Shown here one piece after another: positions 28,949-44,457 of a stretch of DNA of 52,761 nucleotides; position 1 is the stretch's first letter, and every line of letters starts with the position of its first letter. Both the position numbers and the translations under genes were made by a program. Where the stretch lies: the NCBI GenBank assembly GCA_014859605.1, contig JACUTW010000008.1, positions 1 through 52,761 of the forward strand. Reading direction: 5' to 3'. The stretch comes from Desulfuromonadales bacterium. GTDB taxonomy: Bacteria > Desulfobacterota > Desulfuromonadia > Desulfuromonadales > UBA2197. Below the pieces are notes generated by a model. It was given only the letters and a program-made list of their open reading frames with translations, did not search any database and was not told where the DNA came from.

Positions 28949-29020
28949 GCGTGCTGGTGTTCCTTCGAAAAGTTTCTTCGAAGTTTCTTGCCATTTCAGT
29001 ATGAGCAAAGGTAGCTAAGT

Positions 29021-29398
29021 TTGGGAATACAACGGGCACAAAAGGTCGCTGAGGCGATTCAAAAAGAGATCTCCTCCCTGATCATCAAGGGATTGAAAGA
29101 TCCCCGGGTCGGTTTTGTCACCATCACCGCCGTCGACGTGACTTCGGATCTTTCCCTGGCCAAGGTCTTCTTCACGGTGATTGGTGATGACAAGGCCCGC
29201 AAGGACTCTGCGGCCGGACTCAAAAGTGCTATCCCTTATATCCGCCGTGAAATCGGCAAGCAGTTACGGTTGCGGGTTGTCCCGGAAGTGGTCTTCCACT
29301 ACGATACATCGATCGATTACGGCCATCATATCGAAGCGTTGCTTAAAGGGATTCAGGAGAAAGATGAGGATGGTCGGGGCGATTCTCAAGACAATTAA
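29021..29398 (+). CDS. rbfA: Ribosome-binding factor A
   Basis: 125 residues from a TTG at 29021; AAGGT lies about nine bases upstream and no ATG in frame fits better. Family features are RAQKVAEAIQKEIS, LKDPRVGFVTIT, SLAKVFF, and the C-terminal LRVVPEVVFHYD followed by DYGHHIEALL. RbfA is a KH-fold cold-shock factor for 16S rRNA processing. A five-codon open frame (29001-29018) sits between the ribosome site and infB; it is probably meaningless. Confidence 0.94.
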   Translation: MGIQRAQKVAEAIQKEISSLIIKGLKDPRVGFVTITAVDVTSDLSLAKVFFTVIGDDKARKDSAAGLKSAIPYIRREIGKQLRLRVVPEVVFHYDTSIDYGHHIEALLKGIQEKDEDGRGDSQDN

Positions 29399-30329
29399 AG
29401 AGAACCGCCGCTTTCTTGTGGTTTCGCACGAAGGGCCGGATGGTGATGCCATTGCCTCGACGCTGGCCTTGACCCTGGCCCTGCGTTCTCTCGGTAAGGA
29501 AGTTGTCGCGTATAATTGCGATGGTGTTCCTGATGCTCTGGCATTCCTCCCGGAGTCGACGACGATTCGCTGTACCCTGGAACCCGCCGAACGTTTCGAT
29601 GTCGGTTTCATCCTCGATGCCGGTGAGTTGCGCCGGGCCGGAACGCATTTGGCGCAGCATTGCGATCTCCTTGTCAACATCGATCATCACCCGTTTTCCG
29701 AGCACTTTACCCCGCTCCATTATGTCGATGAACAAGCCAGTGCCACCGGCGTCCTCATCTATCGCCTGCTGCAGGCCGGGAATATCCCTGTCTCTCGCGA
29801 GGTTGCATTCTGTGTTTATGCAGCCATATTGGCTGACACCGGCTCCTTTCGCTACTCCAATGCCGATGCGGAGGCCTTTCGGGTTGCCGGTGAAATGATC
29901 GGCCTCGGCGTCAACCCTTGGGATGCTGCGGCTGGTCTTTACGAAAGCCAACCGGAGCTGCGCCTGCGTCTGTTGGCTCTCGCCCTGCAAACCTTGACCA
30001 TCTCCCCCTGCGGTCGTTACGGTTCGGTGAGTGTGACAACCGAGATGTACAGTGCCACCGGCGCCCGCGCCGAGCACACCGATGGTTTTGTCAATTACCC
30101 GCGCTCGATCCATGGCGTTGAGGTCGGCCTCTTCTTTCGGCAGGTCGGACCAGGGCAGTTCAAGGTCGGTTTCCGTTCCAAGGGGCGCATCGATGTCGGT
30201 GCGATCTCCCGTGAATTTGGCGGTGGTGGTCATCATAATGCCGCCGGGGCTCAGCTTGCGGGGGATCTTGAGTCTGTGCGCAACACCGTTTTTCAGCGCG
30301 TCGATCAGCTCCTTGATAGCTGCTCTTGA
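29364..30329 (+). CDS. nrnA: DHH-family oligoribonuclease/pAp phosphatase NrnA
   Basis: 321 residues from the ATG at 29364, with AGGAG upstream, overlapping the rbfA 3' end by 35 bases. The DHH phosphoesterase motifs are visible: SHEGPDGDAIAS, ILDAGELRR, NIDHHPFSEHF and ADTGSFRYSN. The DHHA1 part ends in FGGGGHHNAAG. NrnA removes short RNA oligonucleotides and 3'-phosphoadenosine 5'-phosphate. Its place between rbfA and truB is conserved in many bacteria. Confidence 0.94.
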   Translation: MRMVGAILKTIKENRRFLVVSHEGPDGDAIASTLALTLALRSLGKEVVAYNCDGVPDALAFLPESTTIRCTLEPAERFDVGFILDAGELRRAGTHLAQHCDLLVNIDHHPFSEHFTPLHYVDEQASATGVLIYRLLQAGNIPVSREVAFCVYAAILADTGSFRYSNADAEAFRVAGEMIGLGVNPWDAAAGLYESQPELRLRLLALALQTLTISPCGRYGSVSVTTEMYSATGARAEHTDGFVNYPRSIHGVEVGLFFRQVGPGQFKVGFRSKGRIDVGAISREFGGGGHHNAAGAQLAGDLESVRNTVFQRVDQLLDSCS

Positions 30330-31234
30330 ACGGTTTTCTGGTCGTCGATAAACCTCAGGGGGTCACTTCCTTTGATGTGGTGCGGACGATCCGTCGTGCT
30401 CTCAAGGTGCGGCGCGTCGGTCACTGCGGCACCCTCGATCCCATGGCGACCGGAGTTCTGCCGGTTGCCATCGGTGAAGCGACGCGGCTGGTCGAGTTCG
30501 TCATGGATGGAGAGAAGATCTATCGCGGCACCCTGAAGCTCGGTGAGACTACCGATACTCAGGATGCGGAAGGAACCATTCTCTGTTGCCGTCCGATCGA
30601 TGGGATTGGCCGAACGCAGATCGAGGCCGCGATTTCTACCCTGCTCGGCCCGATTCAGCAGTTGCCGCCGATGTATTCGGCATTGAAGCGTGACGGCGTG
30701 CCTTTGTATGAGTTGGCGCGAAAAGGGGTCGAAGTCGAAAGGGCTCTGCGCTCTATAGAAATTTATCGTTTTAAACTCTGCGCCGTCGATCTGCCCTTTG
30801 TCGCTTTTGAAGTCACCTGCTCCAAGGGGACTTATGTTCGCACACTCGCGCATGATCTTGGTGTACGTCTCGGCTGCGGCGCTCATTTAACCGCGTTGCG
30901 TCGCCTGAAGAGCGGCGCCTTCACTGAAGGAGAGGCGATCCCCCTCGATCGCCTGCGGTGTGAACCGGAATCAGTGCAGCTTTTGCCGGTTTCGGCTGCC
31001 CTTGCTTCTCTGCCGGCTCTCGATTTGTCAACAGAGGCGCTGGTTCGCTTGAAGAACGGGGTACCGCCGCAACGGAGTGAAGTCAGCGACATACAGCCGT
31101 TCCCGGTCGCCGGCAGCCTCGTTACGCTCTGTCGAGATCGACAGTTAGTCGCGGTTGCGCGCTTTGAACCTGAACGTGAAAATGAGGCGCGCGGCGATTT
31201 TGTTCTGCTTCGGGTCTTCCCGTCCAACGCATAA
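30326..31234 (+). CDS. truB: tRNA pseudouridine(55) synthase TruB
   Basis: 302 residues from a TTG at 30326 that overlaps the nrnA stop (TTGA). The catalytic Asp lies in GHCGTLDPMATGVLP. Other family motifs are FLVVDKPQGVTSFDVV, GETTDTQDAEG, QLPPMYSALK and CSKGTYVRTLAHDLG. A C-terminal PUA-like region follows. It makes pseudouridine 55 in the T loop of tRNAs. Confidence 0.96.
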   Translation: MNGFLVVDKPQGVTSFDVVRTIRRALKVRRVGHCGTLDPMATGVLPVAIGEATRLVEFVMDGEKIYRGTLKLGETTDTQDAEGTILCCRPIDGIGRTQIEAAISTLLGPIQQLPPMYSALKRDGVPLYELARKGVEVERALRSIEIYRFKLCAVDLPFVAFEVTCSKGTYVRTLAHDLGVRLGCGAHLTALRRLKSGAFTEGEAIPLDRLRCEPESVQLLPVSAALASLPALDLSTEALVRLKNGVPPQRSEVSDIQPFPVAGSLVTLCRDRQLVAVARFEPERENEARGDFVLLRVFPSNA

Positions 31235-31238
31235 TAAC

Positions 31239-31267
31239 TTTACAGCCTTTTTCTTCTGTGATAAAAG
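31239..31267 (+). promoter_or_regulatory. Putative sigma-70 promoter of rpsO
   Basis: TTTACA (31239-31244) and TAAAAG (31262-31267) are 17 bases apart, just after truB, giving rpsO its own promoter in addition to readthrough. Confidence 0.55.
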
Positions 31268-31273
31268 ATCAAG

Positions 31274-31311
31274 GCTTCATGACCACCGGCCATTTGAAGT
31301 CCGGTACAAGC
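31274..31311 (+). promoter_or_regulatory. Structured rpsO leader, possible S15 autoregulatory site
   Basis: An inner stem ACCGG/CCGGT (31285-31289 with 31301-31305) and an outer GCTT/AAGC pair enclose an internal loop, 26 bases ahead of the rpsO start. Ribosomal protein S15 represses its own mRNA through structured leaders in several bacteria. The shape fits, but no known class is recognised. Confidence 0.4.
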
Positions 31312-31336
31312 AATAAAACTAGAAGGAGGTGGCACA

Positions 31337-31603
31337 GTGCTGGCCACGGAACGCAAACAGGAAATCATCGAACAGTTTAAGACTCACGAAGGGGACACCG
31401 GTTCGCCCGAAGTCCAGATTGCTCTGCTTTCAGAGCGCATTATTTATCTGACCGAGCATTTTCGCTCTCATGCCAAGGATCATCATTCGCGGCGTGGATT
31501 GCTTAAGATCGTTGGACAACGGCGGCGTCTTCTCGACTACTTGAAGAGCAAGGACGTTGAGCGTTATCGAACTGTGATCAAGGCCCTTAAAATCCGCAGA
31601 TAA
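31337..31603 (+). CDS. rpsO: 30S ribosomal protein S15
   Basis: 88 residues from a GTG at 31337 with a strong GGAGG site. The sequence matches S15 throughout: [37 protein letters not shown] and [12 protein letters not shown]15 binds 16S rRNA early in 30S assembly. The rpsO-pnp order is widely conserved. Confidence 0.98.
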
Positions 31604-31607
31604 TACC

Positions 31608-31644
31608 GATAAGCGCACTCTTTGCGGTGAGGAGTGCGCTTATC
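31608..31644 (+). terminator. Perfect 13-bp hairpin after rpsO
   Basis: GATAAGCGCACTC (31608-31620) pairs perfectly with 31632-31644, followed only by a weak T tract (TCTTTCC). It may be a partial terminator or a processing site. Confidence 0.6.
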
Positions 31645-31662
31645 TCTTTCCACCGTCGGCGA

Positions 31663-31690
31663 CTCGGGAGGCTGTCCCGAGAGAGTTTTT
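31663..31690 (+). terminator. Intrinsic terminator between rpsO and pnp
   Basis: CTCGGGA (31663-31669) pairs with TCCCGAG (31675-31681) and is followed by AGAGTTTTT. This is a normal intrinsic terminator shape and would separate rpsO from pnp transcripts. Confidence 0.7.
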
Positions 31691-31771
31691 AACGTGAATG
31701 TTGATCGCGTTTAAGACTGTCTCAGGCCAACCTCCCTAGTCTATTTTCACCGTGCTAAAACGTCGAAAAAT

Positions 31772-31801
31772 TCAATCGTTACGGAATGATTGAGAGTTTT
31801 T
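31772..31801 (+). promoter_or_regulatory. Hairpin in the pnp leader
   Basis: TCAATCGTT (31773-31781 region) pairs with AATGATTGA across an ACGG loop and is followed by GAGTTTTT, about 20 bases before the pnp start. In Escherichia coli a pnp leader hairpin is cut by RNase III and used for PNPase autoregulation. Here it could play that part or act as an attenuator; this is inference. Confidence 0.5.
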
Positions 31802-31822
31802 CAGTAGACAAGGAGTATGACC

Positions 31823-33931
31823 ATGTTTGAAAAAACCTACCATCAAGTTGAAACACAGTTTAACGGCCAAACATTCACGATCGAAACCGGGAAAATGGCT
31901 CGCCAGGCGCACGGTGCGGTTGTCGTTTCTTATGGTGGCACCAAAGTCATTTGTACTGTTGTTTCCGCCAGCAAAATGCGCGAAGGGCAGGACTTCTTTC
32001 CGATGACGATCAATTATCAGGAAAAATTCTACGCCGCCGGCAAGATCCCCGGATCTTTCTTTCGTCGTGAACGCGGTTCTTCGGAGCGTGAAACGCTAAT
32101 CTGCCGTCTCATTGACCGTCCGATGCGTCCGCTCTTTCCCAAGGGTTACATGTTCGAGACCCAGATCATGCCAACAGTCATCTCGGCAGACCTGATCAAC
32201 GACCCTGATACTCTGGCGATGGTTGCCGCCTCGGCGTGTGTCGTCATATCTGATATTCCCTTTGCCGGCCCCATTGCCGCTGTGCGCGTCGGCCGTATTG
32301 CCGGCGAGTTGATCGCCAACCCGACCCGCGAGCAGATGGCGGCCAGCGATCTTGATATTATTGTCTCGGGCTCGAAAGAGGCGGTGATGATGGTCGAAGG
32401 CGAAGCCGATCTCATCTCCGAAGACGCTATGCTCGAAGCGATCTTTTTCGGTCACAATGCGTTGCAGCCGCTGATTGAGCTGCAGTCCAAGCTGCAAGCG
32501 CTGGTCGGCGTCAGCAAGCGTGCTTTCGAAGTTGCCAAGGCGGATGCCGAGCTTGAAGCCAAGATCACTCCGCTGGCTGCCGAGCGCCTCAAGGCCGCGA
32601 GCAAAATCGGCTCAAAGCAGGAGCGCTATGCTGCCATCGATGAGATTAAAGGCGAGATTAAAGAGCTGATGGAAGTCGAATATGCCGGACGCGGTAATGA
32701 AGTCTCCGCCATCCTCAATTCGATTTCGAAACGGGCTCTGCGGCAGATGGTCACCCAGGAGAATGTCCGCATCGACGGTCGCGACATGACGACGATTCGT
32801 CCGATCGTCTGCGAAGTCGGCAACCTCTCCCGTTCGCACGGCAGCGCCCTCTTTACCCGCGGCGAGACCCAGGCTTTGGTGGCTGCGACCCTCGGCACCT
32901 CCAGCGATGAACAGCGCATGGATAACATCCAAGGGATGGAGTTCAAGAAATTCATGCTCCATTACAACTTCCCTCCCTTCTCGGTCGGGGAGACCAGCAT
33001 GCGACTCTTTCCGGGTCGGCGTGAAATCGGCCACGGCTATCTGGCCGAGCGTTCGGTTGCCAAAGTCCTCCCCCAGCATGATGCCTTCCCTTATACCATC
33101 CGCATCGTCTCTGATGTTCTGGAGTCGAACGGTTCTTCGTCGATGGCCAGCGTCTGCGGCGCTTCCATGGCGTTGATGGATGCCGGTGTCCCTCTGACCG
33201 CTCCGGTGGCGGGGATTGCCATGGGTCTCATCAAGGAAGGCGATGATGTTGCCGTCCTTTCTGACATCCTCGGTGATGAAGATCACCTCGGCGATATGGA
33301 CTTCAAAGTCACCGGTACCGCGACCGGCGTTGCTGCCCTGCAGATGGATATCAAAATTACTGGTGTCGATCGGGCGATCATGAAGCAGGCGCTGGAGCAG
33401 GCGAAAGCCGGCCGTATCCACATCCTCGCCAAGATGGCCGAAGCGATCGGGACCCCCCGTGGCGACCTGTCACAGTACGCACCGCGTATCACCACCATCT
33501 ACGTCAAATCCGACCAGGTTCGCACCGTTATCGGTTCGGGCGGCAAGAATATCCGCGGCATTATCGAAGCGACCGGTTGTTCGATCGACATCGAAGATGA
33601 TGGCCGCATCAATATTGCCTCGGCTGATGGCGATGCCTGTAAAAAAGCGATCAAGATGATCCGCGACCTCACCCAGGAAGCCGAAGTCGGCAAGATTTAC
33701 CAGGGGATTGTTCGCAAGATTATGGAATTCGGCGCTTTTGTCGAAATTTATCCCGGCACCGACGGCCTCGTCCATGTCTCGGAACTTGCGCATGAGCGGG
33801 TCAAGAACGTCTCCGACGTTGTATCTGAAGGCGATTCGATCCTGGTCAAGTGTATCGGTATCGATAAACAAGGGAAGATCAAGCTCTCCCGTAAGGAAGC
33901 CCTTGGTAAGCCTGAATCCGCTGGCGAGTAA
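31823..33931 (+). CDS. pnp: Polyribonucleotide nucleotidyltransferase (PNPase)
   Basis: 702 residues from the ATG at 31823, which has AGGAG seven bases upstream; the ATG two codons earlier is too close to that site. Two RNase PH domains are separated by a helical linker. The second contains [20 protein letters not shown] and PGRREIGHG, and the KH ([12 protein letters not shown]) and S1 ([19 protein letters not shown]) domains follow. It is a phosphorolytic 3'-5' exonuclease of mRNA decay and part of the degradosome in many bacteria. Confidence 0.98.
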
Positions 33932-33943
33932 ATCGTTGCGGCT

Positions 33944-35209
33944 ATGATCCAGAAATCGGTTCTCGATAACGGTATCCGGATAGTCAGTGAAAAGATCCCG
34001 GCGGTTCGCTCTGCGGCCGTCGGGATCTGGATCGAGACCGGTGCCCGCCATGAAATGCCGCAAGTCAGCGGCATTTCTCACCTTGTCGAGCACATGCTCT
34101 TCAAGGGGACGCAGACGCGTGACGCCCGGTCCATTGCCAAAACCATCGATTCAGTCGGCGGCGTTCTCAACGGCTTCACCAGTCGGGAATATACCTGTTA
34201 CTACGCCAAGGTTCTTGGCGAAAAGCTGCCGCTGGCCATCGACCTCCTCGCCGACATGGTGCAGAATTCGATCTTCGATCCCGAAGAGCTCGAAAAGGAG
34301 CGGCGGGTCATCCTGCAGGAGATCGGGATGGTCGAAGACTCCCCCGATGAACTCAGTTACGACCTCTTCAACCAAACCTTCTGGCAAAATCATCCCCTTG
34401 GCAACTCCATCACCGGTACCGCCGCATCTATAGAATCCCTCACCCGCGACGATCTCTGCGCTTTTGTACGCGAGCGCTATTGTGGCGAAGGGATGGTTAT
34501 CGTTGCGGCCGGGAATGTCGATCATCGTCAAGTCGTCGACCTGATCACCGCGGCTTTTTCCGATATTCGCCCGACCCTGCCGGAGGTCGCCACGCTGTTG
34601 CCCGATTACGGGCGTCACCTTAATCTTCACGAAAAAGAACTCGAACAGGTGCATATCTGTCTCGGCACCCGTCTCCTGCCGCAGGATCATCCCAATCGTT
34701 TTGCCGCCTACCTCCTCAATATGATTCTTGGCGGCGGCATGAGTTCCCGTCTTTTTCAGTCGATCCGCGAAAATCTCGGGTTAGCTTATTCGATCTACAG
34801 TTCGGTTGACGCCCATTCTGATGCCGGCGCTTTGGTCGTTTATGCCGCTGTCGCCCCGGCGGATACCCGGCAGACCGTCGATGAAATCCTCAAAGAACTG
34901 GCTAAATTTCGCACTCAGCCGATCCTTGCGGAGGAATTGGCTGTTGCCAAAGATCAGCTTCAAGGAAATATTCTCCTGTCACTGGAGAGCTCTGACACCT
35001 GCATGTCCCTGTTGGCCCGCAATGAAATTTATCTCGGACGCATCTTCCCGGTTCGCGAACTGCAGCGCGGTATTGAGAAGGTGACGGTAGAGGATATTCA
35101 TCGCCTGGCCGAGTTTGTCATCAAGGACGAATATCTCAATCTGCAGATTCTTGGCCGTGTCCAGCCGCAGGATTTTGACCTGTCGCAACTCACGGTCGAA
35201 GGGCGTTAG
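33944..35209 (+). CDS. M16-family zinc peptidase (processing-protease type)
   Basis: 421 residues, matching the YmxG/mitochondrial processing peptidase-beta type. The zinc motif is HLVEH followed by MLFKGT, with the distal Glu in the [17 protein letters not shown] stretch. The C-terminal half has [22 protein letters not shown]. Genes of this type follow pnp and precede dut in many bacteria, as here. The physiological substrate is not settled. It begins 12 bases after pnp. Confidence 0.94.
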
Positions 35210-35210
35210 C

Positions 35211-35660
35211 ATGACCGCAGCGACTTTAACGGTGCAGGTGCGCCGCCTCTCTGGTACAGCGATCCTCCCCCGCTACATGACCGAGCTTGCCGCTGGTGTG
35301 GACCTCCATGCCGACCTGGCAGCGGACATCAGTCTGGCGCCGGGGGAGCGCACTCTCGTCCCGACTGGTCTTGCCCTGGCAATCCCCGCTGGCTTCGAAG
35401 GGCAGGTCCGTCCCCGCTCCGGCCTCGCCTTGAAAAAGGGGATAGCGCTGGTGAATTCGCCCGGCACCATCGATGCCGACTACCGCGGTGAAGTCGGGAT
35501 TATTATCATCAATCTTGGCCAGGAGATCGTGACAATCGCTCCGGGTGAACGCATCGCCCAGTTGATCATTGCCCCGGTGGTCAGAGCGAAATTTGTTGCC
35601 GTCGACGAGCTCGATACCACCCGGCGCAATGCCGGCGGTTTCGGCCATACCGGAGGATAA
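35211..35660 (+). CDS. dut: Deoxyuridine 5'-triphosphate nucleotidohydrolase
   Basis: 149 residues from the ATG one base after the M16 stop. dUTPase motifs are in order: AAGVDLHAD (I), [11 protein letters not shown] (II), [15 protein letters not shown] (III), GERIAQLII (IV) and the C-terminal arm AGGFGHTGG (V). It hydrolyses dUTP to dUMP and keeps uracil out of DNA as a homotrimer. Confidence 0.97.
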
Positions 35661-35662
35661 GC

Positions 35663-35959
35663 ATGGCGCATAGCTGTGACTGTGGCACAACGAATGGCAA
35701 GCCCCTCGACGAGCTGGTGGAATTCCCCTGCGATTACATCTTTAAAGCCTTTGGTCCCAATAATGAGACCTTTGTGGACCGCGTCCGTGCGGCGGTCGGC
35801 GCTACCGTCTTTGCCCCTCTCGACGCCATCAAGGTGCGCCCCAGCAGCAAGGGGGAGTATCAGTGTGTGACCGTTGTCGTCCGTTTGCAGAATGTCGAAC
35901 AGCTCAAAACCATCTATCACGATTTGCAGCAGCTCGCCGAGCTGAAATACCTCCTCTAA
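35663..35959 (+). CDS. DUF493 (YbeD-like) protein
   Basis: 98 residues. Family features are the LVEFPCDYIFKAFG segment and the SSKGEYQCVTVVV strand. The N-terminal CDCGTTNG segment is an added Cys pair. DUF493 proteins are small ferredoxin-like-fold proteins, some associated with lipoylation in enterobacteria; here the role is unknown. It starts two bases after dut. Confidence 0.85.
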   Translation: MAHSCDCGTTNGKPLDELVEFPCDYIFKAFGPNNETFVDRVRAAVGATVFAPLDAIKVRPSSKGEYQCVTVVVRLQNVEQLKTIYHDLQQLAELKYLL

Positions 35960-35981
35960 AGCCACTCAAGCGGGGTCGCCG

Positions 35982-36596
35982 ATGATTATACCTGTTCATG
36001 CCGATAATCCGCAGCCGCGCCAGATCAGCCGCATTGTCGAGACGTTGCGTAAAGGCGGGGTTATCGCTTATCCGACCGATACCATCTACGGCATCGGCTG
36101 CGACATTACCAATCGCAAAGCGATTCAGCAGATCTACCGGATCAAAGAGCGCGATCCGAAAAAACCCTTTGCCTTCATCTGCCCCGACCTGGCCGCTATC
36201 ACCCGTTTTGCCCAGGTCAGCAACTTCGCTTTTCGCATCCTCAAACAACGCCTCCCCGGTCCTTATACCTTTATCCTTGAAACGACGCGACAGACCCCGG
36301 AGATCCTCACCACCAAGCGGAAGACTGTCGGCATCCGTATCCCCGATAATCGTATTGCTTTAGCAATTGTCACCGAACTTGGCGAACCTCTCGTCACCAC
36401 CAGTGTTAACCTTTCCGGCAGCAACCCCCTCTGCGATCCTTATGATATTGAAGATGAATTCGGCCAGCAACTCGACATGGTGGTCGATGGCGGCATCCTT
36501 ATGGGCGATCCTTCAACCGTGATCAGTCTGGTCGGAGACCGCATTGAAATCTTGCGGCAGGGCTGCGGAGAAACCTCCTGGATCACCGAAGGATAG
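35982..36596 (+). CDS. Sua5/YciO/YrdC-family protein (threonylcarbamoyladenylate synthase-like)
   Basis: 204 residues, a single YrdC domain with VIAYPTDTIYGIGCD, IYRIKERDPKKPF, RLPGPYTFIL, VGIRIPDN and TSVNLSG. TsaC/Sua5 members make the threonylcarbamoyl-AMP used for tRNA t6A37. The KERDPKKPFAFIC stretch is closer to the YciO subgroup, whose in vivo role is less certain. It lies 22 bases after the DUF493 gene. Confidence 0.88.
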   Translation: MIIPVHADNPQPRQISRIVETLRKGGVIAYPTDTIYGIGCDITNRKAIQQIYRIKERDPKKPFAFICPDLAAITRFAQVSNFAFRILKQRLPGPYTFILETTRQTPEILTTKRKTVGIRIPDNRIALAIVTELGEPLVTTSVNLSGSNPLCDPYDIEDEFGQQLDMVVDGGILMGDPSTVISLVGDRIEILRQGCGETSWITEG

Positions 36597-36600
36597 CTTG

Positions 36601-37056
36601 ATGATCTATCGCTGCGCCCGACTTCTCCTGGTCACGCTGACCGTTCTTTTCTGCCTCTGTGGGCCATCTGTCGCCGCACCCCCGATCGCATTGGCCAAAC
36701 CGGCAGAGATGGGGGGCGTCGGTCTGCAGGTGGTGCCGATTGCCAGCGGTGAGATTGTCGTCATTGCCGTCTTGGCGAAATCCCCGGCCGATAGGGCCAA
36801 GCTGCGCCCCGGTGATCTGATTATCGCCGTTGACGGCGTCGCTTTACGCGGCAGCAAGTTTGCTGATGTCACCAAAAACCGGCTTTGGGGCAAGGTCGGC
36901 AGCAAGGTCAAGCTGACCTGGCAGCGCCCCGGCGTGGCCGGTAAGAAGAGTGCACAGCTGGTGCGGGCAGCCCTCAAGAATGAACCGGCACAAGATCTTG
37001 AGGTCCAGCTGCTGGTGCCGGTCGCGACTCCTGTTTCTGAGGTAACTAAACAATGA
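36601..37056 (+). CDS. Secreted single-PDZ protein
   Basis: 151 residues from the ATG at 36601. A signal peptide (cleavage near SVAAPP) is followed by one PDZ domain (about 35-120: GGVGLQVVPI, VLAKSPADRAKLRPGDLIIAVDG, KVGSKVKLTW). No protease domain is attached. The next gene starts inside its last codons, so the two are translationally coupled and may work together. Confidence 0.8.
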   Translation: MIYRCARLLLVTLTVLFCLCGPSVAAPPIALAKPAEMGGVGLQVVPIASGEIVVIAVLAKSPADRAKLRPGDLIIAVDGVALRGSKFADVTKNRLWGKVGSKVKLTWQRPGVAGKKSAQLVRAALKNEPAQDLEVQLLVPVATPVSEVTKQ

Positions 37057-37445
37057 GCGGCAAAGAGATCACCCTCACTTTTTACGGACGACGTTTTTTT
37101 CGGGAAGATTGGCGCATCGATTTCGACCGGGCCAGCATCGATACCTGGGTGAGCAAGTTGCAGGGCGAATACACCCCTTTTCAGATAAGTGTTCAAGGGC
37201 GCTGGCAGGAAGATGTCGTCCTTGAGCTTAATGGCTATGCCGACCTCCTCAACTGTGTGCGACTCAGTTCCCCGCAAGACGGCATAAGTAACCTGTGTCT
37301 CGGTCATATCATCGGCAAGAGTGCCAACTGTAATCTCGAGGAGGATATCCGCCGCGGTGTCAGTCGCGTCGCCTTTGCCCCGGAAATGGTAGAACCGGAC
37401 GGGGAGAATAAGCGGGTCTGTCACAACTGCGGCTGTGGGTGTTGA
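37053..37445 (+). CDS. Small protein with Cys-rich C-terminal tail, unknown
   Basis: 130 residues, with an ATGA overlap with the PDZ gene. No signal peptide. The sequence is mixed alpha/beta with aromatic residues near the N-terminus (LTFYGRRFFREDW) and ends in CHNCGCGC, five Cys-containing positions suited to metal or Fe-S binding. No family recognised. Confidence 0.7.
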   Translation: MSGKEITLTFYGRRFFREDWRIDFDRASIDTWVSKLQGEYTPFQISVQGRWQEDVVLELNGYADLLNCVRLSSPQDGISNLCLGHIIGKSANCNLEEDIRRGVSRVAFAPEMVEPDGENKRVCHNCGCGC

Positions 37446-37454
37446 GGAAGAGGA

Positions 37455-37507
37455 TGTAGGAGCGACCTCCAGGTCGCAATCATCGCAGACTGGAGCCGGC
37501 TCCTACA
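37455..37507. repeat. REP-like palindromic repeat
   Basis: TGTAGGAGC at 37455-37463 matches inverted GGCTCCTACA at 37498-37507, with an inner GACCTCCAGGTC palindrome. This sequence type (GTAGGAGCGACCTCCAGGTCGC) resembles dispersed extragenic palindromes of many proteobacteria. Only one copy is seen here. Confidence 0.6.
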
Positions 37508-37544
37508 GTTCACCCACAAATCGCCGGAGCAACATTAAGCGAGC

Positions 37545-37576
37545 GGGGCGACTCATCATAGAGCCGCCCCTTTTTT
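37545..37576 (+). terminator. Intrinsic terminator of the long rightward gene run
   Basis: A 10-bp stem with one mismatch (GGGGCGACTC, 37545-37554, with GAGCCGCCCC, 37561-37570) is followed by six T residues. It closes the Sua5-PDZ-Cys-tail group. Confidence 0.8.
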
Positions 37577-37870
37577 GCATTCAGGCACGATATGATTCAG
37601 CCGGCATTTTAGTTGAATGAATCGTTTCAAACGGTTAGGATACTGAAGTATTTGTGCAAACATAAAATATCCTTACGTCTACGCTTTCATGGGATAGGTG
37701 CGGTCATTTTGCCATTTGTAGACGTACTGAATTTTATCGAGGCTCTTGCCAAAATTGGTCAAACGCCGATTTGTAGAGTTTCGCAATATAATCGTGAAGA
37801 CAAGTCAGACCGGCACATTGTGGTTTTCTACGGTGACGGAAGATGAAATTGCGGATAGAGGGGGGAAATA
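37577..37870. other. AT-richer gap, no confident gene
   Basis: Base composition drops relative to its surroundings. One 77-codon frame (37613-37846, TTG start) exists but has no ribosome site and no recognisable features. The stretch probably holds the promoter of the toxin-antitoxin remnant that follows. Confidence 0.4.
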
Positions 37871-38134
37871 ATGAAGATTAAATACTCGGAAATCGCTGAA
37901 AAGCAGATCAAGCGAATTGCCAAAGGTGACAGAAAAAGTACAGTATTGATTCTCGCGGCCATTGAAAGATATGCTGAAAACCCTTCCACGGCATAGAATG
38001 TCAAGGAGTTGAAGGGGAACCTGGTTTCATTCAAACGACTTCGCGTTGGCAACTACCGCGTTATTTTTGATGAATCAGGGAACATTATGTTTATCTACGA
38101 AATTAAACACCGGCAGGAGGCATACAATGATTAA
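37871..38134 (+). pseudogene. RelE/ParE-superfamily toxin gene with internal TAG stop
   Basis: Read through from the ATG at 37871, the frame gives 87 codons with the RelE/ParE pattern. The N-terminal part is helical (YSEIAEKQIKRI). After a TAG at codon 42 (37994-37996) come KELKGN, FKRLRVGNYRVIF and the end IYEIKHRQEAYND. The stop falls between the helical half and the catalytic beta sheet, so the 41-residue product should be inactive. The frame is otherwise intact, suggesting recent loss. It overlaps the antitoxin gene by eight bases in toxin-first order. Confidence 0.85.
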
Positions 38135-38312
38135 AACACAAATTGTTCGTGAAGGCAGAAAACCGGTGGCGGTTATTCTTGATTACGAGGAATACCTGAG
38201 ATTAAAGGGGATTGCGGAAGACAAGGAGGACTATGTCACCGCGCTGTATGTAAAGAATACCAACAAAACATGGAAAGATCATGATCAACTGAAGAATGAA
38301 CTCGATTTGTGA
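38127..38312 (+). CDS. Antitoxin of the broken RelE-type module (Phd/RelB-like)
   Basis: 61 residues from the ATG at 38127, with AGGAGG six bases upstream. The N-terminal part VREGRKPVAVILDYEEYLRLK resembles Phd/YefM/RelB-type antitoxin dimerisation segments. The C-terminus is acidic and Lys-rich, as expected for a toxin-wrapping tail. It stays open although its toxin is interrupted. Confidence 0.72.
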   Translation: MIKTQIVREGRKPVAVILDYEEYLRLKGIAEDKEDYVTALYVKNTNKTWKDHDQLKNELDL

Positions 38313-38351
38313 TTGCAGCGAAATATTGAGATGGGTTTGAAGGGATGTTTT

Positions 38352-39716
38352 ATGAACAAAATCGGCCGTAACGATCTCTGCTCTTGCGGGAGCGGGCAAA
38401 AATTCAAAAAGTGTTGCCTGGCAAAGATTGACCAGTTCGAGTCGCGGCGGCGCGAAGAGCGTCAGGCGATCCAGACCGCCATCGACTGGCTGCAAGAGAC
38501 CTATCCCGACGAAGCCGCCGCCGCTTTGTATTTTGATTTTATGGATGAACCGGATGAAGAGAGACAGGCTGCTATCGACGCGCTCTCCGATCGTTTCGAA
38601 AACGCTGTAGACGTCAATATCGGCGAATGGCTGCTGGCGGATGCGCAGCTCACCGTCAATGGCCAAGATGTCGCCGCGAGCGAGCTGATCCTCGGCAAAG
38701 GGGGGCCACTGCTGCCGGCCCGTGGACGCGAGTGGTTGCAGGAACTGGCAAAACGCCCTTTAGCGCTTTATGAGGTGAAAGAGGTTTTGAAGGAGAAGGG
38801 ATTGATCCTTGCCGACATGCTGCACCCGGATCTCCCCCCGGTCGAGATCCGGGAAAAGGCGGCAACCAGATTTTTGCGGCCCTGGGATACGTTCGGAGCT
38901 CGTCTCCTTTGGCAGGATGACAGTTTTGTCATGAGCGGCGCGGTCTATCCAATGGATCGGGAGGCGGCACTTGACTGCCTTGCCGAGATAGCCAGTGAGT
39001 TGAAGCATGAAAATGGCGATGCCACGCTGGAGCGCTATATTACAACCTGCACTATCATCGATTACTGGCTCGATTCGCTTTTGGAAACACGGCCACTTCC
39101 TGAGCTAGTGGATGCTGAGACCGGGGACAAGATCCACTTGACCACCGATCATTATCGGGTGACCGATTGGCCGAAGCTGGACAGCGTTCTTGCTGAGCAG
39201 GACGATGTTACTGGCGATCGTAACGAAGGATGGAACCGTTTTGTCGAGCTGGAGGAGGGCCAATATCGCACTCGTGCCTATTTGATGGTAAAAGGAGTTG
39301 ATTCTCTGGAGGTCTTCTGTAACACCCCCGGTCTGGCCGATGAAGCAAGAAAGTGGCTGGAAGGGCTTGCTGGGGGGATCGTTCAATACAAAATCCGCGA
39401 ACTCGTCGATCCTCGTTCCGAAAAAGTGCGCAATGCCTTGCAACAAAGGCCGGAATCCGAGATCCCGCAGGAGGTGCAGCGCCAGATTGTTCACCAGTAT
39501 CTTGCCAAACACTACGCCACCTGGCCGGAAATAGCGCTGCCGGCCCTGAACGGGAAGACGCCCCTTGAGGCGGTCAAGGATAAAAATCTCCGGCCGGCCG
39601 TTATTGAGCTTCTGAAGTCGATCGATCAGCTTGAGGCGGGGCGGACTGAGGAGACCGGGGGAGAACCTTTTGATGTCTCATTCCTCTGGGCGCGGTTGGG
39701 GGTGGAGAGAAAGTAG
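38352..39716 (+). CDS. SEC-C zinc-motif protein, unknown function
   Basis: About 454 residues from the ATG at 38352 (an ATG at 38331 is possible). It opens with the SEC-C motif NDLCSCGSGQKFKKCC, a CXCX8CC zinc site. The rest is an acidic, mostly helical protein without membrane segments and without a family I can name. SEC-C tails are best known from SecA, where they bind SecB and ribosomes, but they occur in many unrelated proteins. Its 3' end overlaps the convergent ferredoxin-like gene by 39 bases. Confidence 0.8.
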   Translation: MNKIGRNDLCSCGSGQKFKKCCLAKIDQFESRRREERQAIQTAIDWLQETYPDEAAAALYFDFMDEPDEERQAAIDALSDRFENAVDVNIGEWLLADAQLTVNGQDVAASELILGKGGPLLPARGREWLQELAKRPLALYEVKEVLKEKGLILADMLHPDLPPVEIREKAATRFLRPWDTFGARLLWQDDSFVMSGAVYPMDREAALDCLAEIASELKHENGDATLERYITTCTIIDYWLDSLLETRPLPELVDAETGDKIHLTTDHYRVTDWPKLDSVLAEQDDVTGDRNEGWNRFVELEEGQYRTRAYLMVKGVDSLEVFCNTPGLADEARKWLEGLAGGIVQYKIRELVDPRSEKVRNALQQRPESEIPQEVQRQIVHQYLAKHYATWPEIALPALNGKTPLEAVKDKNLRPAVIELLKSIDQLEAGRTEETGGEPFDVSFLWARLGVERK

Positions 39717-39923
39717 GGGAAGATAAAGTGCGCGATGCAGGCAGGCGGGGAGGCAGTCGCTGCAGCCGGTACAGCGCTGCGCATTGACGACGGCGGTTTT
39801 GCGGCCGAAGCCGTCGGTGCGTTCTGTCACGAGGGTGAGCGCGTCGACGGGGCAGGCAGCGACACAACGACCGCAGCCGGTGCAGTTCGTAGTGATCAGG
39901 AGGTTGGGAACTTTTTTTTGCAA
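39678..39923 (-). CDS. Small 2[4Fe-4S] ferredoxin-like protein
   Basis: 81 residues from a TTG at 39923, six bases after the upstream gene. Two four-Cys clusters are visible: CTGCGRCVAACP and CTGCSDCLPACL. The second lacks the usual Pro after the last Cys. The C-terminus is a short Pro/Leu-rich tail. It is the last gene of the leftward run that contains hgcAB and could pass electrons to HgcB or HgcA, which is inference. The overlap with the convergent SEC-C gene end is unusual, and the TTG start is not certain. Confidence 0.72.
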   Translation of the reverse strand: MQKKVPNLLITTNCTGCGRCVAACPVDALTLVTERTDGFGRKTAVVNAQRCTGCSDCLPACLHRALYLPLLSLHPQPRPEE

Positions 39924-39929
39924 GTGCCG

Positions 39930-40457
39930 CTAAAAATCCAGGTGGCGTTCGACAAATTTTTCGATACTGCTGATCTCCCTTTGCAATTCGTAATTACGGT
40001 TTTCCAGCTGAATAATCTCTTCCCCGAGACGCGCCTGTCTCTCCTTGAAGGCCGCCATCTGTGCCTTGGAATCTTCAATCATCTTGCTTAAATCCCCGTT
40101 TGACCCGCCTATATTCTGTTTTTGCCGCTCTTCCAGGGCGAGGATCCGCTCGTTCCAGGTCTTTTGCGCATCTTCGATGTTGTTGCGAGTATTTTTCATG
40201 GCGGTAATGTCCCGCTCGACGACTTCGATGCGCCGCGAGCGAAAACTCAGATAACTAATGGCCAGATTGAGTTTCTCCAGCGATTCTTTGTTGCTGGCGC
40301 TCTTTTGCCCGGCCTCCATGGCTGCTGCCAGGCGATTGATCGCTGCGGTCAAAGCTTCGACTGACGCCGGCGCCAAAGGCTTTTGCTCGGATGCGACGGC
40401 CGGGGAAGAGGGTAGGAGCAGGAGGAAGAGAACAGCTACGGTTAAAAATTGTGACAT
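39930..40457 (-). CDS. Periplasmic coiled-coil protein, unknown
   Basis: 175 residues from the ATG at 40457, with GGAG six bases upstream. A signal peptide (cleavage near AVASEQ) is followed by a helical, Glu/Gln/Arg-rich chain with two coiled coils (about 35-70 and 75-165). There is no Cys in the mature protein. It begins 28 bases after hgcB on the same strand, so co-transcription is likely. No family recognised. Confidence 0.75.
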   Translation of the reverse strand: MSQFLTVAVLFLLLLPSSPAVASEQKPLAPASVEALTAAINRLAAAMEAGQKSASNKESLEKLNLAISYLSFRSRRIEVVERDITAMKNTRNNIEDAQKTWNERILALEERQKQNIGGSNGDLSKMIEDSKAQMAAFKERQARLGEEIIQLENRNYELQREISSIEKFVERHLDF

Positions 40458-40485
40458 CAAAGACTCCGAATAACGTGAAAGGGGT

Positions 40486-40776
40486 TCAGGAACAGCAGTC
40501 GCCGCCGGGGGCACGCAGATTATGTTCGCGCAGCCAGTCATTGATCAGGCCGGTGGCACAGCCGACCCCGGCATCGACGGAGATTGCCGCCACCGGGCAG
40601 TTCAGCTGGCAGGCGCCACACTCCATGCAGTCGTCACGCAGGGCGATAACGGCCTTCTTGCCTTGCAGAACAAAGACCTGATGCGGACAGACCTCCAGAC
40701 AGCGGCCACAGCCGATGCAGATTTCCTCCTGCAACTGCAGGGTCGTCACATCCTTTAAATAGTGGAAACCTTTCAT
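40486..40776 (-). CDS. hgcB: Mercury methylation ferredoxin HgcB
   Basis: 96 residues from the ATG at 40776 with AAGGA seven bases upstream. Two 4Fe-4S motifs are present: CIGCGRCLEVCP (Cys20, 23, 26, 30) and CMECGACQLNCP (Cys50, 53, 56, 60). HgcB-specific features are Cys73 and the vicinal pair Cys94-Cys95 at the extreme C-terminus (GGDCCS). HgcB reduces the HgcA corrinoid so that it can be re-methylated, and its tail cysteines are thought to bind Hg(II). It directly follows hgcA, the defining gene pair for Hg methylation. Confidence 0.96.
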   Translation of the reverse strand: MKGFHYLKDVTTLQLQEEICIGCGRCLEVCPHQVFVLQGKKAVIALRDDCMECGACQLNCPVAAISVDAGVGCATGLINDWLREHNLRAPGGDCCS

Positions 40777-40780
40777 CACT

Positions 40781-41965
40781 TCATCCTTTCATGACCAGCC
40801 ATTGGCCGACAGCCAGCAGGACCGCGCTGCTCAGAATCGCCATCCCCATCAGCGGCATCGCCAGCCGCATCTCCTTTTTAACCCCGTTCGGTGAGGTGTA
40901 GGTCGTGCAGCCGGTGAAGTTGAGGGTGTAAAAAGCACTCACGGCCGGTAGCGCCAAAAAAGCTGCCAGCGTCTGCGGGATATTCCAGTCAGCGCCGACC
41001 AACTGATAGCAGATGAGTGCCCAGAGTAGGCCGACGCTGGCGCCCTTGACGGCAAAGCTCCGTCCCGGCAGCCAGGGGAGGAGGAGGGGGCCGACAACGA
41101 TGCCGGTGTAAAGGGCGCCGAGATAAGCAAAGATCATCTGGCTGGCAGCCGTGCTGCCGCTGCTGAAGAAGCCGAGAAGGAAGAGGAGCAGAGTGATGAT
41201 TGCCGCCGATTTTACGGCATGGACGATCTCGACCGGAAGGAGGACGAGGCGTTCGTAGAGGGTGAAGGTCAGCTCCCGCATGGACGGGGTGGTGACCTGA
41301 CCGTTGTCGAGATAGACAGGGAGATCGGCAGCGCGGATCGTTCCGTAGCGAACATTGAATCCACTCTCTTTCTTCACCGTGTGGGCCGCCACCCCCGGCG
41401 CGCCGAGGATCGGCAGGATCAGCTGACGATGGTTGACGATGCCTGCGAGGTTGGTCGCCTTGATCTGCGTCAGCAGTTCGCCCGTGCCGAAGGTCCCTTT
41501 GCCGGCCGCGCACCAGACATTGACGCCGAAGGTCTCCAGCACCAGCAGCCAGAGGTTGCGGCCGCGCAAGGTGCTGCGCAGGATGTCGTAACTCATTTTG
41601 TAGTTGGCAGTGACCAAAACTGGTGCCTCAGCGTCCGGGGTGCCGATGGCATACAGGCCGGGGGGGACAAGATAGTGCATCCGGCCGATCCCCCAACGCG
41701 CCTTGCAGGCGCCGAGATGATCGCTCAGGGTCAGTTCGCTGGCGATCTGCGCCACCCGTCCACCCTCGGACGTCGGCATCCAGCGCAGAAAACCGGGGAC
41801 TTTTTCAGTAATGACGCCGCCGTGGGTGGTGGCGGGTGGGCCGCAACAGGGGGGCTTCTCCAACGTGGCCGGGGGTGCGGCTGCGGGCGGGCAGCAGCTC
41901 GACAACGGCGGACAACAGGAGGGTGTGGGACGTTTCTCGATCTTTTTAATACGGCGTATCTTCAT
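40781..41965 (-). CDS. hgcA: Mercury methylation corrinoid protein HgcA
   Basis: 394 residues. The hallmark NVWCAAGK (149-156) includes Cys152, the lower-axial cobalt ligand unique to HgcA, followed by GTFGTGEL. The corrinoid-binding domain lies at about 55-235 and five membrane helices follow (about 240-392). HgcA carries a methyl group on its corrinoid and transfers it to Hg(II), making methylmercury. Before the usual N-terminus there is an extension of about 50 residues with three vicinal Cys pairs (17-18, 24-25, 40-41) in a Pro-rich context. The ATG overlaps the thioesterase stop (ATGA). Confidence 0.97.
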   Translation of the reverse strand: MKIRRIKKIEKRPTPSCCPPLSSCCPPAAAPPATLEKPPCCGPPATTHGGVITEKVPGFLRWMPTSEGGRVAQIASELTLSDHLGACKARWGIGRMHYLVPPGLYAIGTPDAEAPVLVTANYKMSYDILRSTLRGRNLWLLVLETFGVNVWCAAGKGTFGTGELLTQIKATNLAGIVNHRQLILPILGAPGVAAHTVKKESGFNVRYGTIRAADLPVYLDNGQVTTPSMRELTFTLYERLVLLPVEIVHAVKSAAIITLLLFLLGFFSSGSTAASQMIFAYLGALYTGIVVGPLLLPWLPGRSFAVKGASVGLLWALICYQLVGADWNIPQTLAAFLALPAVSAFYTLNFTGCTTYTSPNGVKKEMRLAMPLMGMAILSSAVLLAVGQWLVMKG

Positions 41966-42390
41966 AAGGATAGCTCTTTAGCTGGCAGTTGCGCAGCCAG
42001 GTGTGCGGTCAGTTCCGGCGGCAGCTTTGGACGGCCGCCCGCGCCGACGGCGGTGCCGGTGACCTGCGCCTTGACGATCAATTTGTGATCGGGTTGGCGG
42101 TAGATCGTTTGCAGAAAAGTGATCCGCACCGGCGAAGTCCGTTCCATCGCCACTTCGACGACAAAGGCATCGCCGCTGGTCAGGGAGGTTTTGTAGTCGA
42201 TCTCGACCCGCGTCACCACCAGATTGATCCCTTGCGCAGTGAGAGCAGCAAAATCGATGCCGAGCGTCTTGAGGTATTCGTGGCGGGCATGTTCAAGATA
42301 GTTCTGGTAAACAGCGTTATTCACCACCCCCTGCAGGTCGCATTCGTAATCGCGCACCGCCATATCCAGACAAAAGTTTTTAGATTCCAC
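41962..42390 (-). CDS. Acyl-CoA thioesterase, hot-dog fold (YbgC/4HBT type)
   Basis: 142 residues from a GTG at 42390 with GGAG seven bases upstream. The hot-dog helix motif VRDYECDLQGVVNNAVYQNYLEHAR carries the catalytic Asp position of the 4HBT/YbgC family. Later strands (VVTRVEIDYKTSL; AFVVEVAMERTSPVRITFLQ) fit. It hydrolyses acyl-CoA thioesters; substrate unknown. Its stop overlaps the hgcA start, so expression of the two is coupled, which is unexpected for a methylation pathway. Confidence 0.88.
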   Translation of the reverse strand: MESKNFCLDMAVRDYECDLQGVVNNAVYQNYLEHARHEYLKTLGIDFAALTAQGINLVVTRVEIDYKTSLTSGDAFVVEVAMERTSPVRITFLQTIYRQPDHKLIVKAQVTGTAVGAGGRPKLPPELTAHLAAQLPAKELSL

Positions 42391-42474
42391 TTGTTCACTC
42401 CATGTCCCGCGCGGCAAAAAGACGGGACTTCGTCATCGCCGGGGAAAATCGTCCAGGGATGTCAGGTTTCTCAC

Positions 42475-43725
42475 TCAGCTGCTCTTCGCGCCGGAGCGGA
42501 CCACACAGTTGCGTCCTTGCTCCTTGGCCCGGTAGAGAGCTTTGTCGGCGGCCTTGAGGACCGCTTCCGGGGTGAGATTGAAATTGTTGCGTTCGGCCAC
42601 GCCGATGCTCGCTGTCACCTTCAGTCGTTGTCCTTCTTTGCCCTTGACCGGTTGTTCCGGCTTCTCATTGGGCCGCGCGACATCGCGCAGGGTAAAACCA
42701 GTCATCTCGATGCTATGTCGCAACTCTTCAAGGTGGGGCAGCGCTTCCCGCGCACTTTTGTTCGGAAAGAAGACGGTAAACTCTTCGCCGCCGAAGCGAT
42801 AGGGGCGCCCGCCACCGCGGACCTCCTCAATCTTCGCCGCGACCATCTTCAGAACCTGATCGCCGACGTCATGACCGTGCGTGTCATTGACCTTCTTGAA
42901 ATAATCGATATCGACCATGGCGATGGTGTAAGTCCGTCCGACCTTGAGCAACTCCTCGTTCAGCGCCCGCCGCGCCGGCAGACCGGTCAATTCGTCACGA
43001 TAGGCCATGCGGTGCGACGATTCGACCAGCGAGACGGTGAGAATCAGTCCGGAAGTGGCAAACCAGAGGGTCAGAGTCTCGCCGGAGACCCCGGCGGCGA
43101 GGGGGACGATGGCGGCAACCAGGGCCCAGAGGAAACCGCCGTCGATCGCCGAGGGGTGGCGGGGAAAACGAAAGGCGAGGATGCCGCCCCCTAAAAGGAG
43201 GGCTGCTAAAGGGATCTGTGCCAGCGGCAGACGATCGAGAAGCGCCCAGGGGAGGGGTTTGCCGATCAGGAAGTTGCTGAGGACCGCGGGGCTGGCAAGA
43301 TACGCGAGATAAAGACAAAGGGGTTGCGCTGCGATCACCCCGGCGCGCAGCAGTCCCGGTCGGGAAAGCAAGCCGCGTTCGACAAAGAAGCTGATCATCG
43401 CCAGATTCAGGGGGATGAGGAATTCGGCTGCGGCAATGGCGAGCACGCGGGTCTCACCGTCCGGAAAGCGGCGCAGGCACAGGTCGGCTAAGGTTAAAAG
43501 GACCAGGGCAAAGAAGAGCCGGGTACGATTGAAGCGCCAGCTGAGAAAGAGCCCGAGCGATAGGACCAGGGCGGGGTAGTAGGCAAAGAAGCCGCGTACC
43601 TGGTCGGGGAGGGTGAGGAGATGGAAGAGGAGGACGCCGCCGAGAACTAGCAGTCCGCCGGGGAGGAGATAGACGAGATCCCGCTGGCGCAGGTTGATTT
43701 CAGCGGTCGAAGGGAGCAGTGCCAT
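42475..43725 (-). CDS. Membrane diguanylate cyclase (GGDEF)
   Basis: 416 residues. About eight N-terminal membrane helices (roughly 15-245) are followed by a GGDEF domain (about 255-410) with DELTGLPARRAL, VDIDYFKKVNDTHGHDVGD and the active-site GGEEF, so it should make cyclic di-GMP. The inhibitory site normally four residues before that motif (RxxD) reads RGGG, so product inhibition through it is unlikely. It lies 84 bases upstream of the thioesterase-hgcAB run on the same strand. Confidence 0.93.
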   Translation of the reverse strand: MALLPSTAEINLRQRDLVYLLPGGLLVLGGVLLFHLLTLPDQVRGFFAYYPALVLSLGLFLSWRFNRTRLFFALVLLTLADLCLRRFPDGETRVLAIAAAEFLIPLNLAMISFFVERGLLSRPGLLRAGVIAAQPLCLYLAYLASPAVLSNFLIGKPLPWALLDRLPLAQIPLAALLLGGGILAFRFPRHPSAIDGGFLWALVAAIVPLAAGVSGETLTLWFATSGLILTVSLVESSHRMAYRDELTGLPARRALNEELLKVGRTYTIAMVDIDYFKKVNDTHGHDVGDQVLKMVAAKIEEVRGGGRPYRFGGEEFTVFFPNKSAREALPHLEELRHSIEMTGFTLRDVARPNEKPEQPVKGKEGQRLKVTASIGVAERNNFNLTPEAVLKAADKALYRAKEQGRNCVVRSGAKSS

Positions 43726-43728
43726 GTT

Positions 43729-44304
43729 TTAAAGTCCATTTGTGCCAAAAATTTTAAGGAGATTCATAGCATGAGTCCGGCGTGCTGTAAATCTTTTGAA
43801 AGGTATTTGGATCTCGCTCTTGGCTAACGTGGCGGCCGGGTAGGGGATGAGCCGGTAGTAGAGGTGGGCGCCGTAGGCGGCGAGAAAGAGGATCACCACT
43901 CCGCCTGCCGGCAACAGGCTGGCATAGTGGCGGTCGGCGGCGCGCAGGGCGATGCCGCTGCCGATCAGCGCCGCACCGCTGACGACGGCGAGGATGATCT
44001 GCCGGGCCGGGGTGAGCCAACCGAGATCGACGCCGAGCTTGATCAGGTAGGCGACCGCGAGGACCAGGGCTGTGACTCCGGCCCAGCCGAGGAGTTGGGT
44101 GACATTGAGCTGCGGGAGGGTGGAGCGGGACGCCGGGCGGGGAGTCGTTGCTGTTGTTCGCGGGGGAGTCGGCGCCGCCGGTTCAAGAAAGATGAAATCG
44201 CCGGGATCCCTGGCTGTCTCCGATGTCTGCAGCGCCTCCAGGCGACGTACTCGCGCTTCGAGAGCGAGGATCTGGCGTTTGAGTTCATCTTCGGTGGGGG
44301 GCAT
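43729..44304 (-). pseudogene. DUF2339 membrane protein, truncated
   Basis: 191 codons remain from the ATG at 44304 (GGGAG upstream). The start is normal for the family: a short coiled coil (DELKRQILALEARVRRLE), a Pro/Thr linker and membrane helices (LGWAGVTALVLAVAYLIKLG and onwards to YGAHLYYRLI). After residue about 160 the family sequence stops, and an unrelated hydrophilic tail follows (KSEIQIPFKRFTARR). Full members run to several hundred residues with many more helices, so most of the gene has been lost, probably by deletion. Confidence 0.7.
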
Positions 44305-44457
44305 GCGTTCTCCCTGCAATTCATGTGTTCAAAGTCGGGCAAGGTTTTTACAATGGCGCAAGATTATACCGGAACAATCAAGACGGCAACAGAAACGAAA
44401 AAGGAAAGAAGAAGCGATTGAGTCCGCGTGCTTTATGAGCTCTGTTCATTGCCGTTG

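Follow-up and report, generated by a model that had tools for sequence, protein, structure and literature searches.

An intact hgcAB pair in a Desulfuromonadales bacterium, with a cysteine-rich HgcA tail that is the Cys form of a selenoprotein

Should a Desulfuromonadales bacterium represented by a draft genome be expected to methylate mercury, and how does its HgcA compare with those already known? With the gene pair hgcAB, anaerobic bacteria can convert mercury into methylmercury, which is toxic. The pair is a marker of organisms capable of this conversion, so finding it complete predicts that this lineage includes a methylator. We analysed a stretch of 52,761 nucleotides (the window; contig JACUTW010000008.1 of assembly GCA_014859605.1), for which a sequence-only reading had claimed a complete hgcAB locus at positions 40486–42390.

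The pair is indeed complete, and both proteins score above the curated cut-offs of their own families. The genes lie in the order hgcA then hgcB on the minus strand, one base apart, and neither frame contains an internal stop. With intact, adjacent frames and E values of 1.6e-134 (HgcA) and 8.7e-37 (HgcB) on curated models, a chance match or a pseudogene is ruled out. The extent originally given to the locus is correct only at its left end. Its right end, 42390, coincides with a possible GTG start codon of a separate thioesterase gene, most of which was thereby included; the pair proper spans 40486–41965 (Table 1). The 3' end of the thioesterase gene shares 4 bases with the start of hgcA, so the two are probably co-transcribed. 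To our knowledge, thioesterases of the YbgC/FadM type lie outside the methylation machinery.

Table 1. Features at and around the hgcAB locus, in window coordinates.
Feature	Position	Strand	Remarks
hgcA	40781-41965	-	394 aa, ATG start; membrane corrinoid protein HgcA
hgcB	40486-40779	-	dicluster ferredoxin; GTG start at 40779 (97 aa) or ATG start at 40776 (96 aa)
HgcA N-terminal tail	41789-41965	-	residues about 1-59; three vicinal Cys pairs
Cys40-Cys41 codons	41843-41848	-	second Cys aligns with an in-frame TGA of relatives, probable selenocysteine
Thioesterase gene	41962-42417	-	YbgC/FadM-family acyl-CoA thioesterase; TIGR00051 (70.8 bits), PF13279
Small coiled-coil protein	39930-40457	-	probable signal peptide; downstream of hgcB; no Pfam family
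Second small ferredoxin	39678-39923	-	2x[4Fe-4S], generic; 26 bits on the HgcB model (cut-off 99)

We took family identity from NCBIfam equivalog models with curated cut-offs. HgcA scores 448.1 bits on its own model (NF040863, cut-off 275), covering profile positions 1–324 of 325, and HgcB scores 124.9 bits on NF040864 (cut-off 99). The model for HgcAB-like fusion proteins (NF043039) gives 182.5 bits for HgcA, under its cut-off of 285, and 53 bits for HgcB; the homology to these fusions is distant, and unlike in the fusions the two genes of the window are separate. The sole Pfam match of HgcA is to a distant family, CdhD (PF03599, 40 bits), and its corrinoid domain is homologous to the CFeSP gamma subunit (AcsC/CdhE, PF03599; Foldseek E about 1e-6, 27% identity). 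Despite this kinship it is next to inconceivable that the corrinoid protein serves as a subunit of the CFeSP/acetyl-CoA pathway (AcsC, CdhD or CdhE) with the ferredoxin as a generic partner, since HgcA reaches only 63.6 bits on the CFeSP gamma model (NF003195, AcsC/CdhE-type, cut-off 306), CFeSP has neither a membrane domain nor the cap-helix cysteine, and the window's genome holds no second PF03599 match above cut-off. Profile placement against CdhD/AcsC had been proposed as the check on the first reading; at 448 versus 63.6 bits it falls on the HgcA side and refutes an AcsC/CdhD identity.

The residues and the fold described in the sequence-only reading are present as well. The cap-helix motif NVWCAAGK occupies residues 149–156 with the cobalt-ligating cysteine at position 152, and all eight residues (N149, V150, W151, C152, A153, A154, G155 and K156) are invariant in 42 of 42 aligned HgcA rows. 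An AlphaFold2 model (mean pLDDT 85.7, pTM 0.77), built on an input alignment of 42 window and locus sequences, has a CFeSP-like corrinoid domain at about residues 59–222, followed by the five C-terminal membrane helices (236–269, 271–298, 304–326, 329–348 and 359–393). Its top PDB match is 9a0b, a published HgcAB model, with CFeSP structures next. Counted from the GTG start, HgcB has cysteines at 21/24/27/31 and 51/54/57/61, which form two CxxCxxCxxxCP (4Fe-4S) motifs, and further ones at 74, 95 and 96. Counted from the ATG, the numbering used in the first reading, the last three are Cys73 (in GVGC) and Cys94 and Cys95 of the C-terminal tail. We looked for a selenocysteine form of HgcB (GVGU) in the loci listed and found Cys at this site in every HgcB and TGA in none.

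In Desulfovibrio desulfuricans ND132, Cys93 of HgcA and Cys73 of HgcB are essential, and one of Cys94 and Cys95 is needed (PMC7305189). Every mutationally essential residue of the literature is found in the window's HgcA and HgcB, which bears out the claim that the features needed for Hg(II) methylation are there. The pair resembles HgcAB of ND132 and of Geobacter sulfurreducens in the order of the genes, the corrinoid domain, the cap-helix cysteine and the five membrane helices, and in the two cluster motifs, Cys73 and the CC tail of HgcB. Unlike these proteins, HgcA of the window has a Cys-rich N-terminal tail of 50–60 residues, and because of this tail its cap-helix cysteine is residue 152 and not 93.

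Gene integrity, family identity, essential residues and fold are established here. That the organism methylates Hg(II) is a strong prediction, because its hgcAB belongs to a known kind. Methylation rates differ widely among methylators. If the proteins work as their homologues do, the two 4Fe-4S clusters of HgcB would reduce the corrinoid of HgcA to Co(I), Cys152 would supply the lower axial thiolate on cobalt, and Co(I) would take up a methyl group. In purified HgcAB the methyl group comes from SAM via methylcobalamin, with a Cys-Co bond (PMC11588087), and SAM may be the donor here too. The methyl group would then pass from the corrinoid to thiolate-bound Hg(II), while Cys73 and the C-terminal Cys94-Cys95 of HgcB would hand mercury in and methylmercury out.

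What, then, is the HgcA tail, which the earlier reading did not mention? The sequence preceding residue 71, where the NF040863 profile starts, is MKIRRIKKIEKRPTPSCCPPLSSCCPPAAAPPATLEKPPCCGPPATTHGG; the tail falls outside the profile. Its cysteines come in the pairs C17C18, C24C25 and C40C41 (CCPP...CCPP...PPCCGPP). Residues 1–50 have a pLDDT of 51–63 in the AlphaFold2 model and are thus of low confidence or disordered. We found no mutational work on the tail in the literature examined.

In most of 41 relatives the second Cys codon of PPCCGPP is TGA, and the frame is conserved on both sides of it. Together with loci from further genome searches, the set comprises 59 loci of this CxGP type: 46 have TGA (PPC-TGA-GPP), 13 have Cys, and TAA or TAG never occurs. 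About 14 nt past the TGA comes a short stem closed by a loop of 3–5 nt, typically CTCCGCC-GGY-GGCGGAG. The stem of the Sec forms averages 6.8 bp, where recoding with synonymous codons drawn from the gene itself would give 3.5 bp (Wilcoxon P about 6e-14; the P values of the hairpin and Fisher tests count related loci as independent although they are not). In the Cys forms it averages 2.5 bp versus 2.45 expected, hence no excess, and none of them has a stem of at least 6 bp at the Sec-form spacing. The specific hairpin test alone showed a signal; the folding energy of the whole 63-nt segment reveals no excess stability. GGA serves as the third Gly codon in 27 of 33 SAGGG forms, compared with 18% of the other Gly codons of the same genes. 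We regard the hairpin as a putative bacterial SECIS-like element, and its presence beyond codon choice points to selection on the Sec site. TGA and the downstream hairpin occur together in the tails of L004, L006, L009-L015, L017-L028, L030, L032-L041 and L043.

Selenoprotein forms of these proteins have been reported: PMC13188914, after Haft and Gwadz 2023, lists both as selenoproteins, HgcA with a CU and HgcB with a GVGU motif. Taken with the in-frame TGA and the hairpin, this listing means that selenoprotein HgcA is already known and that the window holds its Cys form. It is the same protein with the same tail position, PPC-X-GPP. At the CU site, however, the window has TGC and not TGA, it lacks the SECIS-like hairpin, and it has two further CC pairs upstream.

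One could also argue that the TGA of the relatives is a true stop, that HgcA starts after it, and that the tail in the window is read-in upstream DNA. Standard gene callers would place the HgcA start downstream of the TGA, and two Sec-form CxGP loci, L015 (genome G534) and L037 (G556), are in genomes without a SelB match, be it through incomplete assemblies or a real mismatch. We nevertheless consider a true stop very improbable. The PPC and GPP codons are conserved in frame around the TGA with no other stop codon found, the hairpin accompanies TGA at a fixed spacing but not Cys codons, SelB is present in 31 of the 33 CxGP Sec-form genomes examined, PMC13188914 names HgcA as a selenoprotein, and the hgcA frame of the window is open from the ATG at 41965 through Cys41. 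Standard gene calls probably cut HgcA short at this codon in most Geobacter-type genomes.

Where the selenocysteine is missing, further cysteine pairs are usually present. Leaving out the exchanged Sec/Cys pair itself, 12 of the 13 Cys forms of the CxGP type have one or two extra CC pairs in their tails; the 46 Sec forms have none. Among 127 tails of all types, extra CC pairs occur in 4 of 72 Sec tails (68 without) and in 49 of 55 Cys tails (6 without). On a quick IQ-TREE phylogeny of the HgcA core, there are at least 16 changes between Sec and Cys forms. Where branches are well supported, independent pairs show extra CC together with Sec loss in 5.7 cases on average, the opposite in 0.1 and no difference in 3.3 (sign test, median p 0.031, range 0.016–0.375). 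The CxGP clade alone, with 5 changes and 3–5 pairs, offers too few for a test. The pattern of Sec and CC exchange is consistent, and its tree-aware support is modest. The literature examined, which excludes the primary selenoprotein paper (Haft and Gwadz 2023, PMC9879109), contained no report of such a swap. Two to four CCPP-type repeats are also seen in other HgcA proteins of the same order (L090-L105, L109-L111, L115, L117, L119, L121, L123-L125, L131, L134, L141 and L144), whereas one CUPPKAPPGA motif is all that their tree neighbours have.

It is conceivable that the tail is nothing but neutral, low-complexity Cys/Pro filler and that the Sec/Cys pattern reflects lineage history. The predicted disorder of the tail and its variable length and composition would fit such a view, and so would the modest tree-aware support inside the window's own clade. 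Filler does not account easily for at least 16 Sec/CC changes in which the extra CC pairs go in the same direction in nearly all informative pairs, nor for a hairpin that is maintained beyond codon choice, as under selection on the Sec site. We hence judge filler to be distinctly unlikely.

Could the Cys form simply be a consequence of lost selenocysteine decoding? SelA is absent from the window's genome (2.76 Mb in a draft of 153 contigs, with a completeness rating of 100%), and so is any SelB above cut-off (the best matches are EF-Tu-like in length); the top three tRNA-Sec candidates turn out to be tRNAs for Ser and Trp. SelD of this genome has Cys (SSGCAAK; L165:6-1049, contig C142 of G000), and its gene adjoins a KdsB-like gene instead of selB. 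The sister species G517 has selB next to a selD that contains TGA (L168 and L172, contig C11), yet its HgcA has the same Cys form (CCAP/CCPP/CCGPP). SelB is also found in 5 of 8 other Cys-form genomes checked. Lost decoding can thus be rejected as the general cause of the Cys form. Since G517 combines SelB and a TGA-containing selD with a Cys-form HgcA, the Cys form probably arose before the apparent loss of the decoding machinery. This loss within the genus appears to be recent. In two congeners selB is present, with a TGA-containing selD beside it.

The surroundings of the gene pair are shared with G517 only. Window positions 28608–37449 and 39730–43839 align to this sister species, with a DNA identity of about 87–89% across the locus. 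The segment between them (37449–39730) is a 2.3 kb insertion relative to G517 in which GC dips to 0.44; it holds a 467-aa protein (38313–39716) with a SEC-C-like Cys motif near the N-terminus. A 130-aa protein at 37053–37445 matches nothing in Pfam and is rich in Cys at one end (CHNCGCGC). At the point where synteny with G517 breaks off (43839), a membrane-protein frame (43729–44319) ends in unrelated-looking sequence and is possibly a gene truncated at a rearrangement point. The thioesterase gene adjoins hgcA only in the window and in G517, and the coiled-coil protein and the extra ferredoxin (74% identical in G517) are common to these two alone. Among the compared loci no hgcAB neighbour is conserved beyond G517, and conserved neighbours as a clue to native function were therefore discarded. 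The congener G516 (91% complete) has no HgcA match, so hgcAB is patchy within the genus.

The computed Sec/Cys exchange pattern suggests that the tail acts as an arm for metal-thiol(selenol) handling. Disordered and carrying three Cys pairs, it could serve at the cytoplasmic face as a flexible soft-metal arm for capturing or shuttling Hg(II)/CH3Hg+ or the native substrate. Such an arm would hold the soft metal near the active site, parallel to the CC tail of HgcB. Selenium is a very strong mercury ligand, and several vicinal thiols may do the job of the single selenocysteine of most relatives. Tentatively, and with some doubt on our part, we propose that the tail is an unrecognised third element for handling mercury or organometals, which has repeatedly switched in evolution between Sec and an array of two to four Cys-Cys-Pro units and is present in the window in its array form.

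A real hgcAB pair might still have its main job on another substrate or metal, with mercury methylation as a by-product of it that this organism may not display. Carriers of hgcAB are not obviously more resistant to mercury (PMC7305189), conserved neighbours are lacking around the pair here, and a Sec or multi-Cys tail fits any soft metal. All residues for mercury methylation are kept, however, and another main substrate is compatible with mercury methylation. Although it fares best among the alternatives, we think it somewhat unlikely. The locus is very probably a working hgcAB operon from the Geobacter-type lineage, with the tail as its proposed soft-metal arm.

Beyond the confirmed pair, the interest of the locus lies in the HgcA tail. 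HgcA calls in Sec-using relatives are probably cut short at the TGA, and the tail would then be hidden from most surveys. The result renders two steps testable, the uptake of Hg(II) by HgcAB and its release of methylmercury, and raises the question why some methylators use selenium and others thiol arrays instead.
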